Shown: one piece after another, positions 13,080-30,970 of the stretch | How the letters are laid out: each line of letters begins with the position of its first letter | Numbering within the stretch: position 1 is the stretch's first letter | Source: Chloroflexota bacterium | Lineage (GTDB): Bacteria; Chloroflexota; UBA6077; FW602-bin22; JAMCYS01 | DNA length: 35,910 nt | Assembly (NCBI GenBank): GCA_023473795.1 | Contig: JAMCYS010000056.1 | Coordinates: forward strand, 1-35,910 | Direction: 5' to 3' | Program-made: the position numbers and the translations under genes | The notes under the pieces: model-generated | The model's database searches: none | What the model was told of the DNA's origin: nothing | Seen by the model: the letters and a program-made list of their open reading frames with translations, nothing else

Positions 13080-13099
13080 CAGGAGGCCTAACCCCCTGT

Positions 13100-13196
13100 C
13101 CCCCTTCCCCACTGGGGAAGGGGGAACGCCCCTCCTCCTGTCGGGGAGGGGCGCGGGTTGCTCCATTACATCGTAGGGGCGGGGCATGCCCCGCCC
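13100..13196. repeat. Cluster of GC-rich hairpins between aprA and qmoA
   Basis: Three stems in 97 bp: 13100-13110 with 13114-13124 (perfect, 3-nt loop), 13128-13135 with 13145-13152, and the 20-bp perfect palindrome GGGCGGGGCATGCCCCGCCC at 13177-13196. The remaining gap to qmoA (261 bp in all) shows no ORF with a ribosome site. The stems may act as a processing or attenuation zone, or are inserted palindromic repeats. Confidence 0.65.
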
Positions 13197-16750: not shown

Positions 16751-16801
16751 GCGCGGGGGCTGTCCCGCGTACTGGAACGGCAAGGCCACTGTAGCGCGGG
16801 G
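16751..16801. repeat. GC-rich inverted/direct repeat upstream of qmoC, unit 1
   Basis: A GCGCGGGGG...CCCGCG stem at 16751-16769 is followed by GTAGCGCGGGG at 16791-16801. That 11-mer recurs exactly as the left arm of the hairpin at 35764-35791. No ORF with a ribosome site is seen in the gap. Confidence 0.5.
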
Positions 16802-16887
16802 ACGCCTCCCTGATTGAGGGTGGCAACCCCCCGCGCTGCGAGGGGGAACGTTCTTCCGCAGCCCCCCGCGGGGCGCTTGGTAGACTT

Positions 16888-16929: not shown

Positions 16930-18306
16930 ATGGCGGAGCCGGTCGAGGTCCTGAAACCCGATACCAAGTTCATCGCGGACGTGATCAAACTGGGCGGGCA
17001 GTCGGCCAAGAAGTGCTTCCAGTGCGGCACCTGCACCGTCACCTGCAACGTCTCCTACGCCCAGACGCACGACGAATCGTTCGCCCGGCGCCTGATGCTC
17101 TGGACAGCCTGGGGGCTCAAGGACAAGGCCCTGACCGACCCGGCCATCTGGGCCTGCTACCAGTGCCAGGACTGTTCCGCCAACTGCCCCCGCGGCGCCA
17201 AGCCGGGCGACGTCATCGGCGCCCTGCGCGCGCTCGCCATCGAGCGCTACGCCAGGCCCAGATTCCTCGCCCGCTGGTTCCGCGACCCCGTGTACCTGCC
17301 ACTGATCCTGGCCATACCGGCGGTGATCATCCTGGGGTTGCTCCTCGCCTTCAACGTGCAGGTTCCCTCTGGGCCGGTGGTCTACAAGCACTTCATCTCC
17401 GAGATCTACGTCGAGATCGCCGGCGTCATCGTGGCCGGCCTGGCGATCCTCGCGACCGCCTATGGGATGTTGCGCTTCACCTTGGAGACGCGCCTGCCAC
17501 AACCAGGGGCCGTCGACGGCCCCGGCGCCCTTGCCGCCGACCTGCCGGCCGAGCGCGAACTGCCCGCCACGATGGTCTCGACCCTGTCCGACGTGGCCAC
17601 CCACGCCGATTTCCGAGCCTGCCAGACGGAGACGACCCGCACCTGGGGCCACCTCATCACGATGTACGGTTTCCCCCTGCTGCTGATCGCCACGGCCCTG
17701 TCATTCCTCTACGGCCTCGTCGGCATCGACCAACAGAGCCGCTCGCTGCTCGATCCGATGAAGATCGCCGGCAATCTCGGCGGCCTGCTGGCTTTCGTCG
17801 GCGTCTGCCTGTTGATCTACAAGCGTTTCCAGGCCAAGCCCGCTAAATGGGGGGTGGGCACCTACTACGACTGGCTCCTGCTCTGGCTCATCTTCGCCAA
17901 CGTCTTTCTGGGCTTCGCCACCCAGTTCACCCGCCTCGCCGGTGGCGTGAACCTGGCCTACTGGCTCTACGTGGCCCACTTGACGGTCGTCTTTGCCACT
18001 TTCGTCTACCTGCCCTACGGCAAGCTGGCGCACCTGTACTACCGCCTGGCCGCCCTCGCCGCCCTGCGCCAGGGCAGCAAGACGGGCCCGGCCAGCGTCT
18101 TCATCGTCGTCATCGCCGGCGTCGCCGCCGTCCTCGCCGCCGCGGCCGTCCTGGTCGCGGTGCTGGCCGCCGTCGCCTGGGTCGCCCAGGCGTTGCCGAT
18201 GGGGTTGCTTGCTTTGCCAGAATCTGGAATCTCGCTCAACCTGTACTTGCCGGTAGCGAGCGTCAGCATCCCTTTTGGTTGTTGGTCGCCGTTGGCTTCG
18301 GTGTAG
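16930..18306 (+). CDS. qmoC: Quinone-interacting membrane-bound oxidoreductase, subunit C, running into a TauE N-terminus
   Basis: Residues 1-~105 are an HdrC-like ferredoxin domain (C29-x2-C32-x2-C35-x3-C39, then a second set in CYQCQDCSANCPRG). Residues ~115-385 are the HdrE-like membrane part with about six helices, including WGHLITMYGFPLLLIATALSF, that oxidises menaquinol at heme b. QmoC would be expected to end near LYYRLAALAALRQG. Here the frame continues about 70 residues: an Ala/Val-rich helix, then ISLNLYLPVASVSIPF, which is how TauE/SafE exporters begin. A short unrelated tail (GCWSPLASV) then reaches the TAG at 18304-18306. The tail change falls at 18270-18276, where a -1 shift enters the TauE frame. 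The QmoC assignment is secure. Whether the product is fused to TauE is open. Confidence 0.9.
   Translation: MAEPVEVLKPDTKFIADVIKLGGQSAKKCFQCGTCTVTCNVSYAQTHDESFARRLMLWTAWGLKDKALTDPAIWACYQCQDCSANCPRGAKPGDVIGALRALAIERYARPRFLARWFRDPVYLPLILAIPAVIILGLLLAFNVQVPSGPVVYKHFISEIYVEIAGVIVAGLAILATAYGMLRFTLETRLPQPGAVDGPGALAADLPAERELPATMVSTLSDVATHADFRACQTETTRTWGHLITMYGFPLLLIATALSFLYGLVGIDQQSRSLLDPMKIAGNLGGLLAFVGVCLLIYKRFQAKPAKWGVGTYYDWLLLWLIFANVFLGFATQFTRLAGGVNLAYWLYVAHLTVVFATFVYLPYGKLAHLYYRLAALAALRQGSKTGPASVFIVVIAGVAAVLAAAAVLVAVLAAVAWVAQALPMGLLALPESGISLNLYLPVASVSIPFGCWSPLASV
18270..18276 (+). promoter_or_regulatory. Candidate -1 frameshift heptamer joining qmoC and tauE frames
   Basis: In the qmoC frame the bases read C_CCT_TTT, the X_XXY_YYZ pattern of simultaneous-slippage sites. 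Slipping back one base gives CCC-TTT-TGG and continues seamlessly into the TauE frame. The only hairpin seen is GCCTG-CTCT-CAGGC at 18307-18320, about 30 nt downstream, which is farther than usual stimulators. A one-base assembly or genuine indel in this C3T4 run would give the same picture. Confidence 0.45.
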
Positions 18307-19223
18307 GCCTGCTCTCAGGCATGACCGGGGTCGGCGGCGGCTTCATAATGACGCCGCTACTAATGATGATCGGCGTGCCTTCGGCCGCCGCGGTGGGCAC
18401 CGATAACACCCAAATCGCGGGCACTGCTTCCTCGGGCGCCCTGGCTCACTGGCGGTTGGGCAACGTAGACGTCAAGCTGGGGCTCACTATCCTCGCGGGC
18501 TCTTTCATCGGCGGCACCATCGGCGTACAGATCGTCAGCGTGCTGCGCTCTCTGGGCAACTTCGATTTCTGGGTGCGCATAACCTACGTCGTGGTCCTGG
18601 GGACGGTGGGCTCCCTGATGCTGCGCGAAAGCGTGCAGACCTGGATCACCAGCTTCCGCTCCCGCACTATCGCCTCTCTGGTCGCCGAGGGCTATGAGGA
18701 GCTGCGGGGTAAGGTGCACGAGGTAAGCGCGCCGCCGGTGGCTCTGCCCGTCGGCCGGCTCACCGCTCACTGGCCCCTGCAGATGGAATTCAAGCGCGCC
18801 AAGATCCGCGCCTCGGCGCTGTTCCCCTTCGGCCTCGGTCTGGCGGTCGGCATTCTAGCCGCGATCATGGGGGTGGGCGGCGGCTTCATCATGGTACCGA
18901 CGATGATCTACATCCTCGGCGTGCCCACCCACGTGGCCGTGGGCACGGACCTCTTCCAGATGGTATTCACCGCCGCCAACCTGGGCTTCCAGCAGGCCGT
19001 GTTCAACCGCAACGTGGACGTGGTCCTGGCGGTCCTCCTCTTGGTGGGGGCGGCCGTCGGGGCCCAGGTCGGCGCCAGGCTGGGACAACGCCTGGCCGGC
19101 CACCAGCTGCGCACCTTCTTGGGCACGATCGTCCTCATCGTGATGGTGAAAATGCTGTTGGACATCGTACTGCCCCCCGGCAGCCTGATCGGCATCGCCA
19201 CGGGAGGCGGAGGAGGCCACTGA
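18270..19223 (+). CDS. Sulfite exporter TauE/SafE family permease (frame joined to qmoC)
   Basis: About 317 residues in this frame, with the two-repeat TauE/SafE fold: GVGGGFIMTPLLMMIGVP in the first half and GVGGGFIMVPTMIYILGVP in the second, plus GTDNTQIAGTASSGALAHWRLGNVDVKLG. The family exports sulfite, sulfoacetate or similar anions through the inner membrane. The natural N-terminus (NLYLPVASVSIPF) is in the qmoC frame upstream of 18270. In the present frame no ATG precedes the first helix and no ribosome site supports the tandem TTG codons after 18276. The frame itself is open from 17847, but upstream codons are Arg-rich shadow of qmoC. Stop overlaps the next start (TGATG). Next to the Apr/Qmo genes, sulfite export is likely. 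Confidence 0.85.
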   Translation, partial: PFWLLVAVGFGVGLLSGMTGVGGGFIMTPLLMMIGVPSAAAVGTDNTQIAGTASSGALAHWRLGNVDVKLGLTILAGSFIGGTIGVQIVSVLRSLGNFDFWVRITYVVVLGTVGSLMLRESVQTWITSFRSRTIASLVAEGYEELRGKVHEVSAPPVALPVGRLTAHWPLQMEFKRAKIRASALFPFGLGLAVGILAAIMGVGGGFIMVPTMIYILGVPTHVAVGTDLFQMVFTAANLGFQQAVFNRNVDVVLAVLLLVGAAVGAQVGARLGQRLAGHQLRTFLGTIVLIVMVKMLLDIVLPPGSLIGIATGGGGGH

Positions 19224-20068
19224 TGGGCAAGCTGCACCGCGCCTGCCTAGTGCTACTGCTCGCCCTGCTGCTGGCGCCGACGCTGCCCTGCTTTGGCCAG
19301 GCCCCCGGCGTCACCGTCTCGCCCCAGACCGTGCTGGTGGACGTGAACTTTGTCGGCGCCGACGTCGCCATTTCGGGCGTCGCCCCCGCCGGGGCCCAGG
19401 CCATCGTCAAGGTCACGGCCGCGCCCGTCACCGTCAAGCTGGCCAAGAAAGGCCCCGTCCTGGGCCTCTTCTGGATGACCACCGAGCAAGCCCTGGTCGA
19501 AGGGATGCCAGCCTACTTCGCCGTGTTCAGTTCCCAATCCGTGGATGGCCTTCTCAGCCCCGACGAGCAGGTGCGCCTGGCCCTGGACTCGAATTGCGTC
19601 GGCCTGATGAGCAATGCCCACGCCCAGGCCCCCTCGGGCAGCGCGGCGCTCACGCCCGCGGAGGCCCGGGTCTACGTCGAGAGCCTGCGCGACATGTACA
19701 TCAAGACCGCGAAGTACGTCCCCTGCCAGAGCTGCCACCGCAGTCAGGCCCAGGGCGGCGCACCTGGCGGCATGACAGGCACCGCTTCGGGAGGTTCGCT
19801 GGCCCTGGACGAGGGCCGCTGGCAGTTGCGGCTGCGCCTGCCGACGGATGCGCCGCTCGGGCAGTACCAGGTTACCGCCTATTACGTTCAGGCCGGCACG
19901 GTCGTCGACACGCGGGAAGCCAATTTCGACGTCCAGAAGACCGGTTTGGTGGCAATGCTGGGGTCTCTGGCGACCGATAGCGCCCCGGTCTACGCGGTTC
20001 TCTCGCTGGGCGTGGTGATGCTTGTGGGCCTGGGGATAGGCGCGGTTTTCCCCAAGGCGCGACATTGA
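19223..20068 (+). CDS. TIGR02186/Alph_Pro_TM-type membrane protein with CxxCH motif
   Basis: A 281-residue protein with a cleavable-looking signal (CLVLLLALLLAPTLPCFGQA), an extracytoplasmic beta-rich region (GVTVSPQTVLVDVNFVGADVAISGVAP) and a C-terminal anchor helix (AVLSLGVVMLVGLGIGAVF) ending in basic residues. This layout matches the TIGR02186 family that accompanies TauE/SafE genes. C168-Q-S-C171-H172 is a c-type heme attachment motif in the exported part, which I do not know as a family feature; it follows YIKTAKYVP and precedes a Gly-rich loop, so it may be an inserted heme site. The start overlaps the tauE stop, so the two are translationally coupled and probably form one export unit. 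Confidence 0.8.
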   Translation: MGKLHRACLVLLLALLLAPTLPCFGQAPGVTVSPQTVLVDVNFVGADVAISGVAPAGAQAIVKVTAAPVTVKLAKKGPVLGLFWMTTEQALVEGMPAYFAVFSSQSVDGLLSPDEQVRLALDSNCVGLMSNAHAQAPSGSAALTPAEARVYVESLRDMYIKTAKYVPCQSCHRSQAQGGAPGGMTGTASGGSLALDEGRWQLRLRLPTDAPLGQYQVTAYYVQAGTVVDTREANFDVQKTGLVAMLGSLATDSAPVYAVLSLGVVMLVGLGIGAVFPKARH

Positions 20069-26551: not shown

Positions 26552-27676
26552 GTGTTTGACTTCCCCGTCGCCGGCATAGAGATTCCCTGGCTTCTCCTGG
26601 TCTTCACCGGCTTTACCGTGGGCGTGGTCGGCGGCTTCGTGGGCGTCGGCGGCGGCTACATGGTCACCCCCGCCCTCTGCGTCTTCGGCTTCCCCGGCTA
26701 CATGGCCTCCGGCATCGACCTCACCCACATCGCCGGCAAGGGGGTGATCGCCACCATCCGCCATCGCCAGCTCGGCAACATCGACTGGACCCTGGCGATG
26801 AGCATGATCGCGGGCACCATGTTCGGCGTCGAACTGGGCACCCGCGTCCTGGGCTTCTTCAAGGAGCAGGGCCTCTCCACCGTGGCCGTGCTCACCGCCT
26901 CCTTTGTGTTGATGACCGGCCTCTTCATTTATACTCAATATGAAACGCGCCAGGCCCAGCGTCAGACCGTCAAGATGGAACGCGAAGGTCGGGACATCGG
27001 CCGCGAGGTCGTGGCCTCCAATCTGCCCAGCGTCTTTCAAGCGGTGCCGCTTATGCCGATCATCCGCTGTCACACCGCTCGAGTCGTCGTCTCGATGTGG
27101 GTCATCGTGCTGGTGGGCATGAGCACCGGCCTGCTGGCGGGCTTCCTCGGCGTCGGCGGCGGCTTCATCCGCGTGCCGGCTTTGGTCTACCTCGTCGGCA
27201 CCTCCACCCACGTCGCCGTGGGCACCGACCTCGTGGAGATCGTCTTCTCCGGCTCCTACGGCGCCATGCGCCACGCGATGCACGGCAACGTCGACTTCCT
27301 GGCGGTGATGTTCATGCTCTGCGGGGCGGTGTTCGGGGCTCAGTTCGGCTCCATCGCCACCGCCTACGTGCGCGGCCCCGCCATTCGCTTCATCCTCAGC
27401 TACTCGCTCGCCCTGGCCGGGCTGGGGGCCTTTCTGCCCTTGTTCGACAAGCTGACCAGCTCGACGATTTGGCTCATCGGGGCCGTGGCCGTGACGCTGA
27501 CCCTCGGGCAGATGATCTTCCTTTGCGCCTACATACTCTCGCTCTTCGGCTTCGCCCTGCTGGCGCGCCGGGGGCGCTGGGTGCCCGCCTGGGCGATGCC
27601 CCTCTTGGTGAAACCTGGCAGTCACCTTGCCACGGCTCAGGCGCCGTCCCGGCTGGTGAAAGGGAGGGTTGTGTGA
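26552..27676 (+). CDS. Sulfite exporter TauE/SafE family permease, copy 2
   Basis: A 374-residue inner-membrane protein. The two inverted halves carry the signature loops GFVGVGGGYMVTPALCVFGFP and GFLGVGGGFIRVPALVYLVG, with GKGVIATIRHRQLGNIDW in the first half. A hydrophilic loop of about 60 residues (ETRQAQRQTVKMEREGRD) separates them. GTG 26552 starts 3 bp after the response regulator stop. It overlaps by GTGA a 36-residue membrane ORF. It is clearly paralogous to the permease at 27931-29067 and only distantly to the one beside qmoC. Substrate unproven; sulfite or another sulfur oxyanion is suggested by context. Confidence 0.92.
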   Translation: MFDFPVAGIEIPWLLLVFTGFTVGVVGGFVGVGGGYMVTPALCVFGFPGYMASGIDLTHIAGKGVIATIRHRQLGNIDWTLAMSMIAGTMFGVELGTRVLGFFKEQGLSTVAVLTASFVLMTGLFIYTQYETRQAQRQTVKMEREGRDIGREVVASNLPSVFQAVPLMPIIRCHTARVVVSMWVIVLVGMSTGLLAGFLGVGGGFIRVPALVYLVGTSTHVAVGTDLVEIVFSGSYGAMRHAMHGNVDFLAVMFMLCGAVFGAQFGSIATAYVRGPAIRFILSYSLALAGLGAFLPLFDKLTSSTIWLIGAVAVTLTLGQMIFLCAYILSLFGFALLARRGRWVPAWAMPLLVKPGSHLATAQAPSRLVKGRVV

Positions 27677-27783: not shown

Positions 27784-27930
27784 GTTCGGCTCACCCGGCC
27801 GGCCGGCCGCTCGCTGCGGCTGGGCCGGCGCTATCTTGGCCGCCCAGGCCCTTGGGGCATTTGCGGCGTGGGCGAGGTGCTTTCTGACGCCGCGCCGGGC
27901 AGCAATTCTGGGCGAGGGAGGAAAGGCTGG

Positions 27931-29067
27931 ATGTTTGAGTTCCTCATCGCGGGCATATCCACGCCCTGGGCTCTGCTGGTCTTCACCGGCTTCACCGTGG
28001 GCGTCGTCGGCGGCTTCATCGGCGTCGGCGGCGGCTATATGGTCACCCCCGCCCTGGTGGTCTTTGGCTTTCCCGGCCACATGGCAGCCGGCATCGACAT
28101 TACCCACATCGCCGGCAAGGGCGTCATCGCCAGCATCCGCCACCGCCAGCTCGGCAACATCGACTGGACGCTTGCCATGACGGTAGTCTCCGGTACCATG
28201 TTCGGCGTCGAAATGGGCGTGCGCATTCTCGACTACTTCAAGGAGCAGGGCCTCTCCACCGTCGCCGTGCTCACCGCCTCCTTCATCTTGATGACCGGTC
28301 TCTTCATCTATACCCAGTACGAGACCCGCTCCGCCGCGCGCCAGACGGCCAAGTTGGAGAGCGAGGGTCACGACATCGGCCGTGAGGTCGTGGCCACCGA
28401 CCTGCCGCGCCATCTGCAGCGAATCCCGCTCGCGCCCATCATCCGCCTGCGCACGGCCCGGGTGGTCATCTCCCTCTGGGTCATCGTCCTCGTGGGCATG
28501 TTCACCGGCACTCTCGCCGGCTTCTTGGGCGTCGGCGGCGGCTTCATAGCCGTGCCCGCGCTCGTCTACCTCATCGGCGCCACCACCCACGTCGCCGTGG
28601 GCAGCGACCTAGTGCAAATCATCTTCTCCGGCTCCTACGGCGCCCTTCGCCACACCATGGAGGGCAACGTCGACTTCCTGGCGGTGATGTTCATGCTCTG
28701 CGGGGCGGTGTTCGGCGCCCAGTTCGGCTCCATCGCCACCGCCTACGTGCGCGGCCCCGCCATTCGCTTCATCCTCAGCTACTCGCTCGCCCTGGCCGGG
28801 CTGGGGGCGCTCTTCCCGCTGATCAACCAGCTCACCGGCTCCAGCATCCCTCTCCTCTCGGCGTTGGCGGTGACGCTGACGCTGGGACAGATGATCTTTC
28901 TCTGCACGTACATCCTCTCTCTCTTGACGTTCGCGCTTCTGGCGCGACGCGGGCGTTGGGTGCCGATTTGGGCCTTGCCCTTCCTCGTGCGCTACCCGGT
29001 TGCCCGCTCGCGCCCGGTGCAGGCGGCCCAGGCCGTGCCAGTGCAGGAGGTCGGTGGAGAGAGATAG
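27931..29067 (+). CDS. Sulfite exporter TauE/SafE family permease, copy 3
   Basis: A 378-residue permease closely related to the one at 26552-27676: GFIGVGGGYMVTPALVVFGFP, GKGVIASIRHRQLGNIDW and GFLGVGGGFIAVPALVYLIG. ATG 27931 is chosen because GGGAGGAAAGG lies just upstream and the protein then starts like its paralogue (MFEFLIAGI); the frame extends to 27868 without support. Bases 28663-28808 match 27284-27429 at 144 of 146 positions although flanking DNA diverges. The C-terminus has an extra Pro/Ala/Gln tail. It heads a run of small membrane-protein genes. Confidence 0.92.
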   Translation: MFEFLIAGISTPWALLVFTGFTVGVVGGFIGVGGGYMVTPALVVFGFPGHMAAGIDITHIAGKGVIASIRHRQLGNIDWTLAMTVVSGTMFGVEMGVRILDYFKEQGLSTVAVLTASFILMTGLFIYTQYETRSAARQTAKLESEGHDIGREVVATDLPRHLQRIPLAPIIRLRTARVVISLWVIVLVGMFTGTLAGFLGVGGGFIAVPALVYLIGATTHVAVGSDLVQIIFSGSYGALRHTMEGNVDFLAVMFMLCGAVFGAQFGSIATAYVRGPAIRFILSYSLALAGLGALFPLINQLTGSSIPLLSALAVTLTLGQMIFLCTYILSLLTFALLARRGRWVPIWALPFLVRYPVARSRPVQAAQAVPVQEVGGER

Positions 29068-30161: not shown

Positions 30162-30849
30162 CAAGGTGCGCCCGGCCGGACCGTCCCTGGACGAGGCCCT
30201 CGACCCCCTGCTCTCCGAGCTGGAGGTGCTCGACGCGGCCCACGCCCTGGGCGACGTCAAGGACAAGCAGTACGAGCAGCGGAAGCAGGGACTGCTGGTG
30301 GAGATAGGCCTGGCTAAGGTCAAGGCCCGCCTGGCGCCGGGCGAGGAGGTCCTTGCCCAGCACCACTTCCAGCAGTCGCGCTTCCCCTTCACGGGCTTCG
30401 CCTTCCAGGACGCCGCCCAGGAGTCACTCAGCTTCTTTGCCACCGGTCGGCGTATCTTCCGCTGGCGATTCGTCGACCATCCCGACCGGCGGGCCTCGCT
30501 TCACGGCCGAGACCGCCTGGAGGCCCAGGATTACTCCCGCCTTCGGGCCGTCCTTCCCCGTCGTGAGTGGCGCTGGGGCGAGGCGGCGGCCGCCGTGGCG
30601 ACGATCCTCCTGGCGCTCGTCTTCTGGTCCTGGCTGGAGATCACCGGGCCGGTGCTCTTGCTGGTGGGCGCCGCCGGCCTGGGGCACGCGCTGTTCTGGC
30701 CCACCGGCTACTGGCTACTGGCCGGCACGGACCAGAGCCGCGCCTGGCGCGTCTACGCCGTGCGCAAGCGCAGCGCCCGGGCGCTCATCGGTGTCGTCAA
30801 AGCCGGAGTCGAGGGACCTAGCCTTGTTACGGCTGCGGAAGCGGACTGA
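30151..30849 (+). CDS. Unrecognised 232-aa protein with helical N-terminus and two membrane helices
   Basis: Residues 1-60 look like a helical, charged segment (LSELEVLDAAHALGDVKDKQYEQRK). A mixed region (VLAQHHFQQSRFPFTGFAF, FFATGRRIFRW) follows, then two membrane helices (about 147-185: AAVATILLALVFWSWL and GPVLLLVGAAGLGHALF). The start is TTG 30151, overlapping the preceding stop, or GTG 30166. The stop codon and last residues (EAD) come from an inverted copy of the downstream repeat at 30839, so the original C-terminus may have been altered. Function unknown. Confidence 0.68.
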   Translation: MKTNKVRPAGPSLDEALDPLLSELEVLDAAHALGDVKDKQYEQRKQGLLVEIGLAKVKARLAPGEEVLAQHHFQQSRFPFTGFAFQDAAQESLSFFATGRRIFRWRFVDHPDRRASLHGRDRLEAQDYSRLRAVLPRREWRWGEAAAAVATILLALVFWSWLEITGPVLLLVGAAGLGHALFWPTGYWLLAGTDQSRAWRVYAVRKRSARALIGVVKAGVEGPSLVTAAEAD

Positions 30850-30970
30850 AGTCCGCACTACGAACCTGGAGGCGCCCGTCGCTCGTAGTGCGGACTTCAG
30901 TCCGCTCGTCCTACTTCTCTGGCCGTCGCTCGTAGTGCGGACTTTAGTCCGCTCGTCCTACTTCTCTGGC
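30839..30970. repeat. 47-bp tandem direct repeat with an inverted outlying copy
   Basis: Units 30877-30923 and 30924-30970 differ at one base (CTTCAG versus CTTTAG). Each holds the hairpin GCGGACTTCAGTCCGC beside CTCGTAGT. An inverse copy of the hairpin part occupies about 30839-30864 and supplies the stop of the 232-aa ORF. It fills much of the 198-bp gap before the pseudo-receiver gene. Confidence 0.8.

Follow-up and report, generated by a model that had tools for sequence, protein, structure and literature searches.

The window analyzed here is one whole contig (C84), 35,910 nucleotides long, of a 4.44-Mb genome that comprises 170 contigs and is 95.9% complete. It carries an operon with the gene order sat, aprB, aprA, qmoA and qmoB (two HdrA-like genes), qmoC, tauE, a PF09608 (Alph_Pro_TM) gene and a last gene that, judged by eye, is universal stress protein-like. 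With sat, aprB, aprA and the two HdrA-like genes directly upstream, qmoC lies in the apr-qmo operon context, and the established role of QmoC proteins is the transfer of electrons between AprBA-QmoAB and the quinone pool. The qmoC gene (16930-18306, plus strand), recognized as an open reading frame with a profile match, has 458 codons in what we call the 0 frame and closes with TAG at 18304-18306. As in the QmoC family (NF038018), its product scores above the NCBIfam cut-off (324.9 against 300 bits, in a match that covers residues 10-377 only), has both 4Fe-4S motifs with their invariant Cys columns and is modelled with six transmembrane (TM) helices. The body of tauE (18276-19223, plus strand) follows in the -1 frame, with 315 codons and a stop; from 18276 it encodes a complete PF01925 domain (E 2.5e-48, profile positions 1-237 of 237), free of gaps against its homologs and free of decay. 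The PF09608 gene (19223-20068, plus strand) overlaps the tauE stop, is intact, and is a conserved 3' neighbour of tauE in other genomes.

The literature describes those TauE-family proteins that have been studied as exporters of sulfite or organosulfonates (PMC5840216). A search by sequence found no relative of this TauE with a solved structure, and a fold search gave weak matches only, the best to BacA at E 0.04. Two more TauE-family genes, in tandem (26552-27676 and 27868-29067) and sharing about 35% identity with the TauE at 18276, bring the number on the contig to three. The genome also has a dsrA above its family cut-off, with a second dsr-like match beside it (L197 and L198; G000:C110), on another contig far from apr-qmo; because of this dsrA, the sulfur pathway could run in either direction. 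That just two of the 29 members of the class carry a QmoC above the cut-off suggests that qmoC was acquired by horizontal transfer.

The qmoC-tauE junction

The qmoC frame stays free of stops past the last conserved QmoC residues (about 377-389). The core (residues 1 to about 389) is followed by an extra TM helix (about 387-421), a linker with the TauE N-terminus, and a nine-residue tail before the TAG, so that the frame ends in a hydrophobic segment, then PESGISLNLYLPVASVSIPF, then GCWSPLASV. In the AlphaFold2 model of QmoC (the QmoC and TauE parts were modelled as separate proteins) the six TM helices are succeeded by a single long helix, residues 387-421, predicted with moderate confidence. 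The linker (18097-18236, plus strand), made up of the added hydrophobic helix and a PESGIS-type loop, contains neither a stop codon nor a separate tauE start with a ribosome-binding site, and a dicodon model trained on this genome prefers frame 0 from 18097 to 18270 (+18.3, against -23.8 and -43.0 for the other frames) and the -1 frame after the junction. About 45 QmoC homologs lack the linker TM helix; their tails are hydrophilic and end 0-46 residues past the matched core. The protein thus differs from its family in having a seventh TM helix and a frame open into TauE, whereas the homologs end shortly after the core.

The conserved TauE N-terminus, LNLYLPVASVSIPF, is encoded at 18237-18275 (plus strand) in the qmoC frame. 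TauE homologs, about 50% identical, start M-x-[LM]-YLPIA-LTSVN-ILVPVGLG..VGLLSG, and the qmoC frame reads LYLPVASVSI; one TauE homolog (L162) has an in-frame TAA in the matched stretch. The usual position of the start Met is CTC here, so that TauE is without its normal start codon, and qmoC is without a stop before TauE. The spacing from the A of YLP(I/V)A to LLSG is the same in the joined product as in the homologs, and on this homology the TauE N-terminus is really encoded in the qmoC frame, with no residue lost at the join; a coincidental match was rejected because the spacing is exact. The frame change is confined to a few codons, from GCG (18256-18258) to TGG (18276-18278), and the heptamer C_CCT_TTT lies inside this interval. 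A -1 slip at the heptamer joins ...SIPF to WLLVAVGFG... and gives a product of 449 + 315 = 764 residues, with the stretch SVSIPFWLLVAVGFG across the junction. The two frames, the absence of a qmoC stop and of a tauE start, and the homology-exact join can all be read from the nucleotides themselves. The preliminary description had a stop-free qmoC running into the TauE N-terminus, the rest of TauE at -1, the switch on C_CCT_TTT and a product of 764 residues; the open reading frames, the homolog spacing and the PF01925 match bear this out.

No tauE was found beside qmoC in the sequence adjoining QmoC in 60 relatives, 400 genomes of the phylum, the whole class of 29 and 80 further loci, some of them on contigs that end early. 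TauE homologs from the 400 phylum genomes and from 46 QmoC-bearing genomes have their own start codons. Moreover, a scan of viral contigs gave no match, and in the literature, searched for QmoC together with TauE or frameshifting, no description of such an arrangement turned up. A tauE about 50% identical to ours and followed by a PF09608-like gene recurs as a pair in QmoC-bearing genomes (L154, L156, L158, L160, L161 and L170). There, however, tauE has its own start codon and stands apart from qmoC, whereas the pair lies directly behind qmoC in the present genome.

Slippery heptamer and RNA stem

The heptamer C_CCT_TTT (18270-18276, plus strand) sits at the frame switch in the qmoC register: the 0-frame codons are ATC CCT TTT GGT, and the C at 18270 with CCT TTT makes up X_XXY_YYZ. 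In a systematic study in E. coli, H_HH.U_UU.Y, a pattern that C_CCU_UUU fits, ranked among the most efficient motifs, and C_CC.U_UU.U is one of those that the authors list as underrepresented and able to slip with no stimulator (PMC4066793). In-frame heptamers of any kind occupy 187 of the 92,536 predicted codon positions examined, those of the efficient class 10. Simulated removal of a single base placed an in-frame heptamer of any kind at the break 2-5% of the time, rising to about 10% where the run had six or more bases; a heptamer of the efficient class resulted in about 0.2% of the simulations. By eye, no Shine-Dalgarno-like stimulator was seen in the 30 nt upstream of the heptamer; such a stimulator is optional for -1 frameshifting.

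An uninterrupted 19-bp RNA stem (18284-18342, plus strand), the putative stimulator, starts 7 nt 3' of the heptamer, within the usual spacing of 5-9 nt (PMC5009743). Of its pairs, 12 are Watson-Crick and 7 G-U, and its loop holds another small hairpin. The predicted stability is -42.2 kcal/mol, with z between -4.1 and -5.2 for the two stretches that lie closest to the stem; when 220 nt of context are folded, the pair probability is 0.76 for the outermost pair and above 0.93 for the inner pairs sampled. Synonymous codon shuffling produced equal stability in 1 of 2000 sequences for a 64-nt stretch and 2 of 2000 for a 79-nt stretch, and genomic coding windows matched it in 1 of 2374 cases when GC content was matched and in 1.3% of all windows. 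Only one other uninterrupted stem of at least 19 pairs occurs in 286 kb of sense coding sequence, a count that omits the 18284-18342 stem itself because a 14-nt gap in the segmentation takes in its first base. No such stem was found at this position in any of 21 tauE homologs, which include both paralogs on the contig; together with the synonymous shuffles, these homologs led us to reject the stem as a mere by-product of the conserved TGVGGGF coding motif.

The 7 G-U pairs interrupt the stem in DNA and on the antisense strand, and the folds predicted there are weaker; this asymmetry points to the sense RNA, although the DNA is nonetheless more structured than shuffled sequences. Strength alone is no proof, because equally stable windows occur elsewhere in the contig, many of them between genes; it is the position of the stem and its absence from the homologs that carry weight. 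Very stable intergenic stems lie at 13089-13164, 16777-16850, 1487-1531 and 30840-30906, two of them within the operon, in the aprA/qmoA and qmoB/qmoC gaps, and are possible terminators, attenuators or processing sites. Heptamer and stem, like the two frames, are features of the sequence as it stands.

Explanations of the frame change

The efficient heptamer in register, with a rare stem at the right spacing, moves the balance to programmed -1 frameshifting, which would yield both QmoC and a QmoC-TauE fusion. On this sequence evidence we give it a little better than an even chance, and no more than that, since such cases usually turn on conservation and no relative with the same pair was found. 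The slippage that the preliminary description proposed has gained a stem at 7 nt that is specific to this tauE copy and a published efficiency for its class of heptamer.

Of the other explanations, the one that survives best, though we consider it unlikely, is that the assembly lost one base in the C3T4 run and that the true gene reads through qmoC and tauE in a single frame with no stop, its 764 codons invariably yielding a single fused protein. Of the paired runs in the stretch where the junction can lie, this one is the longest, as indel errors favour; one added base would join the frames exactly, the linker codes in the qmoC frame, and published surveys put isolated frame breaks down mostly to errors or indels (4010 clusters of pseudogenes, compared with 146 of recoding; PMC3711429). 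However, the C3T4 run is short, the genome has few broken genes, and both an efficient heptamer, left by about 0.2% of simulated deletions, and a rare, well-spaced stem would have to be coincidences. The background of broken genes was taken from a frame-tracking model run over 323 kb, of which 287 kb were sampled outside the contig, and consisted of ordinary gene overlaps with very few candidate breaks. Because there are so few, the assembly is not indel-rich, even if it may hold some tens of indels across the whole genome, and a noisy assembly was rejected as the cause. The one clear broken gene in the 287 kb is a gutted class V aminotransferase-like gene (L192, about 95541-96200 of G000:C62, minus strand), which is decayed: its middle is gone and its frame changes. 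The earlier fallback claim, that even with a missing base the underlying gene is a stop-free qmoC-tauE fusion, is supported, since the linker codes in the qmoC frame, where it adds a TM helix absent from about 45 QmoC homologs.

Translational coupling is improbable. QmoC would end at 18306 and TauE would start at a TTG at 18279 or 18282 (25 or 22 nt before the stop), the stem being melted by ribosomes that finish qmoC. TTG codons of the tauE frame do overlap the end of qmoC, a stem immediately 3' of this start would tie initiation to qmoC translation, and coupling commonly causes apparent frame transitions, notably in transporters (PMC3711429). But no Shine-Dalgarno-like sequence is present, and such a start would cost TauE its conserved YLPVA N-terminus, which the qmoC frame retains at the exact spacing. 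Least probable, and more doubtful still than coupling, is a real, recent one-base deletion that broke tauE in this strain, leaving TauE lost or supplied by leaky slippage at an unprogrammed site: an otherwise intact tauE is what a very recent break predicts and the genome holds at least one decayed gene, but tauE has no other lesion, the PF09608 gene 3' of it is intact, and heptamer and stem would again both be coincidences.

Proposed recoding and known systems

Under programmed frameshifting, qmoC and tauE would be one recoded gene. Ribosomes translating qmoC would reach C_CCU_UUU with the 19-bp RNA stem 7 nt ahead. Those that do not shift would add nine more residues and stop at 18306, producing a 458-residue QmoC with an extra C-terminal TM helix; some would slip by -1, the Pro-tRNA re-pairing from CCU to CCC and the Phe-tRNA from UUU to UUU, and read on through TauE to give the 764-residue QmoC-TauE fusion. 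The slippage itself, its efficiency, and the stability and role of the fusion are what we infer from these features. In alphaviruses, an upstream TM helix that inserts into the membrane promotes -1 slippage (PMC8682741). The added TM helix of QmoC lies about 30-60 residues before the slip site and, by analogy, a contribution of the nascent chain to slippage is possible.

The charges of the loops place the C-terminus of QmoC inside, and those of TauE fit an N-terminus outside if its broken first helix pair is re-entrant (the fold resemblance to BacA is weak). With one end inside and the other outside, the one added TM helix between them would give the fusion the right topology. The share of QmoC that carries TauE would place the exporter at the Qmo complex, and the role of the fusion might be to fix how much of a putative anion exporter accompanies the quinone-side subunit in that complex. 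As a tentative proposal, for which we put the chances appreciably below even, -1 frameshifting set by the stem, and perhaps helped by membrane insertion of the TM helix, fuses a fixed share of QmoC to an anion exporter and so ties a quinone-linked sulfur complex to transport. That APS reduction is thereby coupled to export of its product is speculation. If the proposal is true, this is a new use of recoding, with an electron-transfer membrane subunit joined to a transporter, and a physical link at a set ratio between the Qmo complex and anion traffic; if merely one base is missing, a 764-residue QmoC-TauE fusion is still an architecture found nowhere else in the searches made.

In bacteria, the known cases of programmed frameshifting come mainly from mobile elements and a few cellular genes such as dnaX. 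The qmoC-tauE junction resembles dnaX, the IS3-family transposases and copA in its X_XXY_YYZ heptamer, of a class measured as efficient, and in a strong stem at 5-9 nt; it differs from them in that no Shine-Dalgarno stimulator was seen and in that the site is known from one genome. The known cellular cases produce a shortened protein or one enzyme in two forms, whereas slippage here would join a respiratory membrane subunit to a transporter.
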